Assembly (NCBI GenBank): GCA_947259215.1
Contig: CAMYLJ010000011.1
Coordinates: forward strand, 176,531-240,530
From: an uncultured delta proteobacterium
GTDB lineage: Bacteria > Myxococcota_A > UBA9160 > JAFDET01
Direction of reading: 5' to 3'
DNA length: 64,000 nucleotides
Below are positions 20,624 to 26,828 of the stretch, in pieces (position 1 is the first letter of the stretch; every line of letters starts with the position of its first letter). A model generated the notes under the pieces. It was not told the origin of the DNA, did no database searches, and saw only the letters and a list, made by a program, of their open reading frames with translations. Both the position numbers and the translations under genes were made by a program.

Positions 20624-22315
20624 CTAGGGAATAGGCCGGCCGGGCCGGGCGTCAAGGGAGGCCCGTGAACGGGGGCTGAACCGCCGCCCCCGTGGGGGCC
20701 CCGCCGCGAGCGGCGACCTCGCGGCGACGAGAGCCTCCAGCAGCGGCGCCACCTTGTCCCGCGCCTCGGCGTACTCGGCGGCGGCGGTCGAGTCCGCCAC
20801 CACGCCCCCACCGGCGTGGGCCCGCGCCAGGCCCCCGGCGACCACGAGACTCCGGATCACCACCGACAGGTCGGCCCCGCCGCGCGCGTCCAGGTAGCCC
20901 AGGGCGCCCGCGTAGGGACCGCGGCGCACGGTCTCGAGAGCGGTCAGGAGATCCATGGCGGCGAGCTTGGGCGCGCCGGTCATGGAGCCCGGCGGGAAGG
21001 CCGCGCGAACGGCGTCGAGCGCGTCGCGGTCCGGCGCGAGCCGCCCGCTCACCACCGACACCATCTGGAAGACGCGCGCGAAGGCCTCGATCCGGAACAG
21101 CTCCGGCACCTCGACGCTGCCCGTGGCACACACGCGTCCGAGGTCGTTGCGCGCGAGATCCACGATCATCAAGTTCTCGGCTCGGTCCTTGGCGGAGCCG
21201 GCCAGCTCCTCGCCGAGCCGCGCGTCCGCCTCCGGCGAGGAGCCCCGCCGCCGCGTGCCCTTGATCGGGCGGCTCTCCACTCGTCCCTCCGCCGTGACGC
21301 GCAGGAAGCGTTCCGGCGAGCTCCCGACGATCGCCGCCTCGGGCAGCTCCAGGTACGCCGCGAACGGCGCCGGCGTCGCCGCTCGCAGCACCCGGTAGAG
21401 CCGCCACGGATCCCCGTCGAAGGGCACGTCCCAGGTCTGGGTGAGGCACGCCTGGTACACGTCGCCTGCCGCGACGCGCTCCAAGATGGCGTTCACGGCA
21501 TCGAGATACCTCGGCTCCCCGAGAGACTCCGAAGCCCCGCGCGAAGACGGTGCCGCCGAGCCCGCGCACCATCCGGAAGCAGACGCCCGCAAGGGCGACG
21601 CCTTCGGCGTCGCCCGCGAGCCGGTCTCAGCGACAGCGCTATGCAGACTGGGAAGTCGGCCCTCGGCCGACTTCCGATCCTTCTCTTCCCGCAGGCGAGC
21701 GAAGCCATGATATGTGCCCGCGTTCGCCCCGCACCCCACCGCCGCGCCGATCTCCTCCGCCGCCGCCGAGGCCCGGGCCTGGGCCTCGGCGAGATCTTCG
21801 CCGTAGCCCAGTCCGACCGCCCAGGCGGCGCCGGTGGCGTGGTCGAAGGCCAGGAGGCGATCCACCCACAGCAGGGTCAGGTCGGGCAGGCCCAGGTCGT
21901 CCGGCGGCGGCGGGGCCAGGCGTTCGAAGCCGCTGGCGAGCTCGTAGCCCAGGTAGCCGACGGCGCCTCCGACGAAGGGCAGCGTGCCGTCGGCGCGGGG
22001 CGCGGGGGCCAGCAGCTCGCGCGCGCATTCCAGCGGGTCGCCGGCCCGCTCGTGCACGCCCGGCGCCAGGTCCGGGCGCACCTCGCGACGCACCTCGAGC
22101 CGGTGCCAACAGCCGTCCGGGCTGGCAAAGCCGCGCAGCACGGCCCACGGATCCGCCCCGACGAAGGAATGGCGCGCCAGCGGGTGCGCGCGCAGCGCGC
22201 TGTCCAGCAGCCACGGGACGCCCCGGTCGCGCAACGCCTCGAGGCATTCCAGGGCATCCGACACCGCCAGCGGTCGACGCGCGTGTGCCGCGACGACAGG
22301 CGCGCGCTCAGTCAC
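20624..22315 (-). CDS. pabB: Aminodeoxychorismate synthase component I (PabB) with repeat-derived insertion
   Basis: This 563-residue chorismate-binding enzyme combines chorismate and ammonia to aminodeoxychorismate for folate. PIKGTRRRG contains the Lys that marks PabB; anthranilate synthase has Ala at that site. Other motifs are [46 protein letters not shown] and GALGYLD. Between the N- and C-terminal halves (about residues 205-270), a basic, Ser/Ala-rich stretch is partly encoded by a 112-base repeat element inserted in frame. A tail of about 30 residues beyond the usual end is also unusual. The gene overlaps ilvD by 8 bases. No pabA glutaminase is nearby. Confidence 0.88.
20628..20655 (-). 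promoter_or_regulatory. Putative promoter for the two-component genes
   Basis: On the minus strand, TTGACG (20655-20650), a 16-base spacer and TATTCC (20633-20628) lie within the last codons of pabB, 10 bases before the response-regulator GTG. This could uncouple the regulator from ilvD-pabB. Confidence 0.45.
21593..21704 (-). repeat. 112-base structured repeat, copy inside pabB
   Basis: This is the reverse-strand counterpart of the element at 26430-26541. It has two hairpins: an 11-bp stem (21651-21675, loop of three) and a 10-bp stem (21593-21615, loop of three). It is read through in the pabB frame without a stop, adding about 37 residues in the interdomain linker. Confidence 0.8.
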
Positions 22316-25569: not shown

Positions 25570-26421
25570 ATGCGAAGGGTCTGCTTCTACCACGCCGGCT
25601 GCCCCGACGGCTTCGGAGCCGCCTGGGCGGTGCAGCGTGCCTGGGACGGAGACGGCAGCTTCGTCGCCCGGGGACACGACGACGGGCTGCGCGCGAGCAA
25701 CTACGTCGGCAACCTCGTCGTGTTCGTGGACATCGCGCCGCCCAACCGGATCGCGCGCGAGCTGGGAGACGCCGCGGCGCAGCTCGTCATCCTCGACCAT
25801 CACGTCTCGTCGCGGGACCGGCTGGCCGGCGATCCGGAGCTCGAGAACGCACTCGCCGCCGCCGGACACACGATCGTCTTCGATCTCGGCCGATCGGGCG
25901 CCGTGCTGGCCTGGCAGCACTTCCATCCCGGCGAGCCGGTTCCGGACCTGCTGCGCTACGTGGAGGACCAGGACCTCTGGAACTGGAAGCTGCCCCACTC
26001 CGAGGAGGTAAACGCCGCCCTCGGCTCGTACCCCCGCCGCTTCGAGGTCTGGGACGAGCTGGCGCAGCAGCCGGTGGAGGTGCTGGCCCGGGAAGGCGAG
26101 CCCATCGTGCGCGCGAATCGGATCGAGGTGGAGCGCGCGCTCCAGGGCGTGCATCCCGCCCGCCTCGGCGGCCTGCGGGTCGAGGCGGTGAACGCGCGCC
26201 ACCTGCGCAGCGCCATCGGTCACGAGCTGGCCAAGCGCGCCGCCTACGGCTCGGCGTGTGGAATGATCTACCGGGTGGTGGGCGAGCGGGTCGACGCCTC
26301 GCTCTACTCGATCGGCGACCTCGACGTGGCCCGCATCGCGGCGGGCTACGGCGGGGGCGGGCACCGCAACGCGGCCGGCTTCTCGGTGCGCCTGCGGGAC
26401 TGGATCGACGACTTCGTCTAG
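25570..26421 (+). CDS. DHH-family phosphoesterase
   Basis: The 283-residue protein belongs to the DHH/DHHA1 superfamily, metal-dependent enzymes that cleave phosphodiester or phosphoanhydride bonds. HAGCPDGFGAAWA (8-20) gives the first Asp, FVDIAPP a second, and ILDHHVS the DHH motif. A DHHA1-type glycine loop GYGGGGHRNAAGFSV is near the C-terminus. This layout resembles oligoribonuclease- or cyclic-dinucleotide-degrading members, but the exact substrate is unknown. It starts 4 bases after the MFS stop with no ribosome binding site. Confidence 0.85.
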   Translation: MRRVCFYHAGCPDGFGAAWAVQRAWDGDGSFVARGHDDGLRASNYVGNLVVFVDIAPPNRIARELGDAAAQLVILDHHVSSRDRLAGDPELENALAAAGHTIVFDLGRSGAVLAWQHFHPGEPVPDLLRYVEDQDLWNWKLPHSEEVNAALGSYPRRFEVWDELAQQPVEVLAREGEPIVRANRIEVERALQGVHPARLGGLRVEAVNARHLRSAIGHELAKRAAYGSACGMIYRVVGERVDASLYSIGDLDVARIAAGYGGGGHRNAAGFSVRLRDWIDDFV

Positions 26422-26429
26422 CCGCTGAA

Positions 26430-26541
26430 CTTCGCTCGCCTACGGAAGATGGAGGATCGGAAGCCGGCCCAGGGCCGGCTTCCCACCCTGCTTGGCGCTG
26501 TCCCCGAGACCGCTGCGCGTCGGGCGACTCCAGAGTCGCCC
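26430..26541 (+). repeat. 112-base structured repeat, intergenic copy
   Basis: This copy lies between the DHH gene and bolA and is the same length as the copy in pabB (21593-21704). It has an 11-bp hairpin (26459-26483) and a 9-bp hairpin (26522-26541). Base changes between copies fall in pairs that preserve both stems. It reaches to within 3 bases of the convergent bolA stop and could also end transcripts. Confidence 0.8.
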
Positions 26542-26543
26542 TC

Positions 26544-26828
26544 CTAGCCCGCGGCTCCCTCTCGCCACTGCGCCGGGGTCAGGGTCTTCATCGCCAGCGC
26601 GTGGATCTCGCCGGTCATCTCGTGGGAGAGCACGCGGTAGACCAGGCGCTGTGCCTCCAGCGCGCCGAGCCCCTCGAAGCGCGCCGACACGATCAGGGCC
26701 CGGAAGTGCCCGCCGCCGGAACGCGCGCCCGGATGCCCGCGGTGCAGGTAGCTCTCGTCCACCACCTCCACGTGCTCCGCCGCCAGCTCCTCGCGCAGCT
26801 TCGCCTCGATCCGATCCCGTCGGTCCAC
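26544..26828 (-). CDS. BolA-family protein
   Basis: The 94-residue BolA-like protein contains the core ESYLHRGHPGA..GGGHFRALIVS (about residues 25-48) and the RLVYRVLSHEMTGEIHALAM helix-strand unit. BolA proteins pair with monothiol glutaredoxins in iron-sulfur cluster trafficking. The conserved His residues of the family are present, and it ends with the usual KTLTP.QW. The GTG start has no strong ribosome binding site. It lies 16 bases downstream of the acyl-CoA dehydrogenase operon on the same strand. Confidence 0.85.
   Translation of the reverse strand: MDRRDRIEAKLREELAAEHVEVVDESYLHRGHPGARSGGGHFRALIVSARFEGLGALEAQRLVYRVLSHEMTGEIHALAMKTLTPAQWREGAAG

Follow-up and report, generated by a model that had tools for sequence, protein, structure and literature searches.

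Published REPs supply the TAG stop codons of flanking ORFs, lie mainly between convergent or unidirectional ORFs and include intragenic copies (PMC3733652), and in the REP-RAYT system the gene of the Y1 transposase (RAYT) sits between two repeat copies in inverted orientation (PMC2817692). Rickettsia palindromic elements (RPEs) are palindromes of 100-150 nt found between genes and also, as in-frame fusions, inside genes for conserved proteins (PMC2229807). Here we describe a family of structured repeats, represented by two copies in a 64-kb stretch of DNA (the window), that appears from these likenesses to work like a REP/BIME repeat and, within genes, like the Rickettsia elements.

The longest inverted repeat of the window pairs positions 26430-26541 on the plus strand (copy 1) with positions 21593-21704 on the minus strand (copy 2). 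As a preliminary description had stated, the two segments are related throughout, both being 112 nt long and identical at 84 of 112 positions in an ungapped alignment. Both also fold into two hairpins. The first has the 11-bp stem described earlier, GGAAGCCGGCC-CAG-GGCCGGCTTCC in copy 1 (26459..26483, plus strand; from folding and covariation over 43 copies) and GGAAGTCGGCC-GAG-GGCCGACTTCC in copy 2 (21651..21675, minus strand; from folding). The 3' hairpin (hairpin C), previously given 9-10 bp, measured 8 bp in copy 1 (GGGCGACT-ccag-AGTCGCCC, 26522..26541, plus strand; its stem sequence varies among copies) and 10 bp in copy 2 (GGGCGACGCC-gaa-GGCGTCGCCC, 21593..21615, minus strand, from a survey of these hairpins). 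Paired differences had been reported in both stems. In stem 1 one pair is indeed swapped between the copies (C-G/T-A), while stem 2 has changed as a unit, which looks more like swapping between a small number of stem types than covariation at individual positions. The idea of a single 112-base unit had to be abandoned: about 92 nt form the conserved core, and the segment is a composite of an insert (E) nested in a REP-like host repeat, with a separate 3' hairpin. The folding energies of single copies relative to shuffled sequences were modest (z of -1.4 and -2.5), so the two copies alone prove little and the case rests on the family.

The element is a nested mosaic, in which a REP-like host carries E and is closed by a second hairpin that varies among copies. 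The host repeat has the layout CTTCGCTCGCCTNCGG-CTCG-CTGCGCG-hairpin C. Its head, CTTCGCTCGCCTNCGG, located in copy 1 at 26430..26445 (plus strand) by a head search of the genome and a reading of empty heads, has 78 matches in the genome at no more than one mismatch, compared with three for the reversed control. Twenty-two of the 78 heads are occupied, with the approximately 66-nt module E lying between CGG and CTGCGCG, and each of the 20 unoccupied heads that were read has 4 nt (CTCG, CTTG, CGAG or CTGG) at the place of E. The unit is about 60 nt when empty and 125 nt or more when filled. E spans 26446..26512 (plus strand) in copy 1, as delimited by the 20 empty heads and the alignment of E modules, and 21622..21688 (minus strand) in copy 2, as delimited by comparison of the copies. 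It consists of the 11-bp hairpin and, behind it, a conserved box of approximately 20 nt, CTTGGCGCTGTCGCTGAGACC. Alignments place the box at 26491..26511 (plus strand) in copy 1, where it reads CTTGGCGCTGTCCCCGAGACC (family form CTKRRCGCTGTCGCTGAGACC), and comparison of the copies places it at 21623..21643 (minus strand) in copy 2.

The stems of hairpin C fall into a handful of types (GCGCCGCC, GCCCGGCG, GGGCGACT and others), and the hairpin usually terminates at a fixed place, before TTGCGG or TCCTAG. Tested copy by copy against shuffles, 12 of 47 passed at the 5% level, a low number because the sequence is so GC-rich; the case for hairpin C therefore rests on its constant position. Some copies remain similar beyond the core, over approximately positions -55 to +190, giving a BIME-like mosaic. 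In another genome (G022, locus L096), four tandem units of approximately 66 nt contain the host-repeat head and a hairpin without E.

The genome holding the window, which belongs to an uncultured myxobacterial order, is a 5.7-Mb assembly of 128 contigs. A blastn search with copy 1 as query found 26 long copies in it. The preliminary description had made its reading depend on further copies in the genome and on intact stems in them, and had proposed a covariance search of the genome and its relatives. With a model of the 92-nt core built from the long copies, that search found 28 copies in this genome and approximately 30 in G047, a distant genome of the same order and another family, with the stems conserved. 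In an alignment of 43 E modules drawn from four genomes, standard pairs fill 94.5% of the cells of the 11-bp stem, and both sides have changed at six of its 11 pairs. Pairing and covariation as high as this arose in none of 500 shuffles, and slid partners were only 16-53% paired. As the shuffle control ignores relatedness among copies, the two-sided changes support, rather than prove, selection on pairing, which had been proposed beforehand as one of two alternatives, the other being copying as a structured unit.

Presence of the family is patchy. Many copies were found in only two of 80 genomes of the order (that of the window and G047), and few or none in the rest. In an exact pattern scan of 85,000 genomes, from which records of the window's own genome were possibly left out, the 20-nt box was found in 25 stretches, of which 21 belong to one MAG (G047, Myxococcales bacterium isolate B22T1B5) and the other four sit in unrelated sequence in a chance-like manner. 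A phylum-wide model search gave matches beyond the class with weak or absent boxes and without the anatomy of E. In G047, E lies at the same junction, with the box CTGAACGCTGTCGCTGAGACC. Shortened forms also occur there, at loci L159, L162, L165, L167, L169 and L170, all with an identical deletion in which the hairpin between two CGCTCGCTGA repeats is missing. These suggest that the hairpin of E is not required for spread.

Copies of the family lie mostly at the 3' ends of genes. According to gene calls from a codon-usage script, which are approximate, the 22 intergenic copies with both neighbours called comprise 17 between convergent genes, five between co-directional genes and none between divergent genes. 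Among 50 pairs of adjacent genes in the window, eight are convergent, which gives a binomial probability of approximately 3e-10 for 17 of 22. In 15 of 26 copies no more than 10 nt separate the core from the upstream stop codon, and such stops use a TAG or TGA that the 5' end of the repeat itself provides. Three copies are translated in frame within proteins, namely those of a pabB-like gene, dnaX and a CoA-transferase gene; in the last, the copy is at the N-terminus of the gene as called, whose true start is uncertain. The pabB-like gene (20624..22315, minus strand) encodes Anth_synt_I_N (aa 21-161) and Chorismate_bind (aa 268-521) domains, and copy 2 (21593..21704, minus strand), identified by blastn and by comparison with relatives, is translated within the linker between them. 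This insertion is missing from the pabB-like gene of 12 relatives, whose alignments skip it. In one of these (G001) 57 nt take the place of 68 codons here, and the linkers of the other relatives are likewise short.

These positions bear on whether the family moves at all. Immobile functional terminators or other RNA 3'-end structures, duplicated and kept by selection, would account for copies behind stops and between convergent genes, for the covariation of the stem and for the U-tract hairpins in tRNA and tmRNA trailers of relatives (see below). They would not readily account for in-frame copies in three proteins, for empty orthologous sites, for presence in two of 80 genomes or for the weak U-tracts of the window genome, and we consider this reading quite unlikely.

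The surroundings of copy 1 offer a view of its insertion site. The copy lies between a DHH/DHHA1-type gene (25570..26421, plus strand; Pfam matches below the curated cut-off) and bolA (26544..26828, minus strand). The same two genes are convergent neighbours in G002 and G004, where their stop codons overlap on a single common CTAG. In the window there are two CTAGs, at 26418-26421 and 26544-26547, 122 nt apart, and each gene retains its own TAG: that of the DHH-type gene is in the 5' CTAG of the copy and that of bolA in the 3' CTAG. The whole inserted unit, with CTAG on both sides, thus spans 26418..26547 (plus strand). An insertion into CTAG that duplicated 4 bp would produce this pattern, as judged from the sequence of this one locus. 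In G001 a spacer of approximately 40 nt separates the TAGs of the two genes, indicating that the site between them varies. CTAG ends one subfamily of copies, and in the other subfamily CTTGCGG follows the hairpin.

E has relatives outside the host repeat. A covariance model of E alone gave weaker matches in many genomes of the order, and a strict box search (no more than one mismatch) matched 13 of 80 genomes. Several E-like boxes lie 4-10 nt behind tRNA genes (Val, Leu and Asp), with the box antisense to the tRNA, and others lie one repeat unit farther away. One box is located 5' of a tRNA-Val that has a copy on either side, and matches were also found beside tRNA-Lys and tmRNA. Along the tRNA strand, the tRNA comes first, then the box and then the hairpin; the box beside tRNAs of relatives reads CTGAACGCTATCGCTGAGATG. 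The tRNA-Asp locus is identical in G054 and G043, which may reflect contamination. In G042, G032 and G017 the E-like hairpin ends in a U-rich tail (e.g., AAAAAGACG..CGTCTTTTT in G042). In the window genome the pyrimidine tail of E is weak, with about 3-4 T in the 10 nt on either side of the stem, which makes termination doubtful there. No E copies adjacent to tRNAs were found among the loci scanned in the window genome or G047.

Several loci show other arrangements of these modules. Box-hairpin units are found in tandem, approximately 55-62 nt apart, directly behind tRNAs in G032 (L258), G042 (L256 and L274) and G043 (L262/L281), the preceding tRNAs being tRNA-Val or -Arg, tRNA-Pro and tRNA-Asp. 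In G048 (L095/L260) and G017 (L245), inverted boxes lie on either side of tRNA-Val and tRNA-Lys; they face the tRNA and might base-pair with each other in the precursor transcript. In G001 (L234) the box forms the inverted ends of an almost symmetric version, GATCACGGCGATAGCGTTCGG-hairpin-TCCGAACGCTATCGCTGTGATC. Also in G001 (L094 1-1701, plus strand), E alone is translated in frame within the low-complexity tail at the C-terminus of a protein that, judging from its sequence, is apparently an RNase E/G. As an exception to the 3'-end rule, E-like modules lie shortly upstream of apparent dnaK and leuC starts in G043 (L243 and L251).

Such occurrences raise the question of whether E itself is an independently mobile box-hairpin that inserts by structured DNA, such as REP palindromes and tRNA or tmRNA ends, and that reached the host repeat through a targeted insertion of its own, perhaps repeatedly. 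E is found outside the host repeat not only in the RNase E/G-like gene but also at two non-host sites of the window genome; E-like modules follow tRNA genes in tandem and flank tRNA-Val at either end; and the box end of E faces any stable RNA gene or host palindrome that lies next to it. Against this, G000 and G047 carry composites joined at the same point and almost alike in stem (GAAGTCGGC), as would fit the spread of a single ancestral composite as a unit, and no target duplication was seen at E's own ends. On balance we think an independent entry of E rather unlikely.

How do these features compare with the described systems? As for REP/BIME repeats (PMC3733652, PMC2817692), the family consists of short GC-rich palindromes in many dispersed copies at the 3' ends of genes, with mosaic clusters and alternative complementary stem residues; the spacers are mostly convergent or unidirectional, the termini give TAG stops and some copies are within ORFs. 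Sub-modules recur in varying arrangement, as in BIMEs (filled and empty heads, types of hairpin C and common flanking modules). The unit is, however, larger than a REP and carries a nested second module. The GTAG or CGTC tag at the foot of the palindrome was not found in the copies read, which have CTAG instead, and this in one subfamily only. Moreover, none of the three Y1_Tnp genes in the window genome has E or a pair of host heads beside it within approximately 3 kb, with one weak head match at two mismatches near one of them, and G048 has approximately 100 head matches and no Y1_Tnp. Given the lack of such a tag and of a Y1 transposase flanked by the repeat, we did not file the family as a classical REP.

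The likeness to RPEs (PMC2229807), drawn from their description rather than from compared sequences, lies in palindromic structure and in the occurrence of both intergenic and in-frame genic copies, the latter in the pabB-like, dnaX and CoA-transferase genes. The family differs from RPEs in that gene-end positions dominate and in that its unit is a mosaic of two modules. With bacterial MITEs (ERIC, Correia/NEMIS and RUP; PMC2229807) it shares a non-autonomous size and, at one locus, what may be a short target duplication (CTAG, with TA inside it). In contrast to MITEs, it is GC-rich, no clear terminal inverted repeats join its ends and no parental insertion sequence was identified. At copy 1 the unit begins and ends in sequences (CCGCTGAACTTCG.. 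and ..GAGTCGCCCTC) that do not form an inverted pair, so it is not a classical MITE. The earlier classification as a REP/MITE-like element of this lineage was right as to kind, in view of the many copies, conserved stems, filled and empty sites, gene-end and in-frame positions and patchiness. It went too far in confining the element to the lineage, as the same composite is present in G047, a member of another family, and modules resembling E are found by tRNA and tmRNA genes in further families.

E also resembles the intrinsic terminators of stable RNAs, in that its relatives directly follow tRNA and tmRNA 3' ends and some have U-tract hairpins, but here it is inside a REP-like repeat by protein genes, with no clear U-tract. 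The conserved hairpin and box, and the plausibility of transcription, might be taken to indicate a trans-acting structured RNA (sRNA) or a riboswitch family. Searches of Rfam families gave no real match at gathering or permissive thresholds, the window genome shows no bias of copies towards positions upstream of genes, and copies are translated within proteins; such a function thus seems very improbable. Integron attC sites and group II intron parts were also considered, and no such motifs were seen by eye.

Taken together, the family is probably a non-autonomous, REP/BIME-like mobile palindromic repeat in composite form, which has captured the terminator-like module E. The host repeat would spread to the 3' ends of genes, with one subfamily inserting at CTAG and leaving CTAG on both sides, as at copy 1. 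Selection would then retain the low-harm copies, in the positions seen here: behind stops, often supplying the stop, between convergent genes, and in frame in disordered linkers. E, a perfect hairpin and conserved box with relatives in tRNA and tmRNA 3' trailers, would have entered the host repeat, and this capture may have preceded or accompanied transfer between the two lineages. Mobilisation might take place in trans through a transposase, possibly an IS200-like or a CTAG-targeting DDE enzyme. We suggest, more tentatively, that the composite could serve here as a structure at transcript 3' ends, either stabilising the ends of mRNAs or stopping read-through from one convergent gene into the other.

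To our knowledge, how untagged REP-like repeats spread without a RAYT is an open question. The common overlapping stop of relatives, the CTAG on both sides of the copy, and the sites with and without E in one genome make the steps separable in this family. There is a small chance that E represents a new small mobile element, a box-plus-terminator moving alone into structured DNA (REP palindromes and the ends of tRNAs, for example) and carried by the REP repeat; if so, a self-moving E would spread transcript ends through the genome. The family ties a 3' trailer module of tRNA and tmRNA genes to a dispersed repeat, and provides clean cases, the pabB-like protein and DnaX, of a repeat turned into part of conserved proteins.
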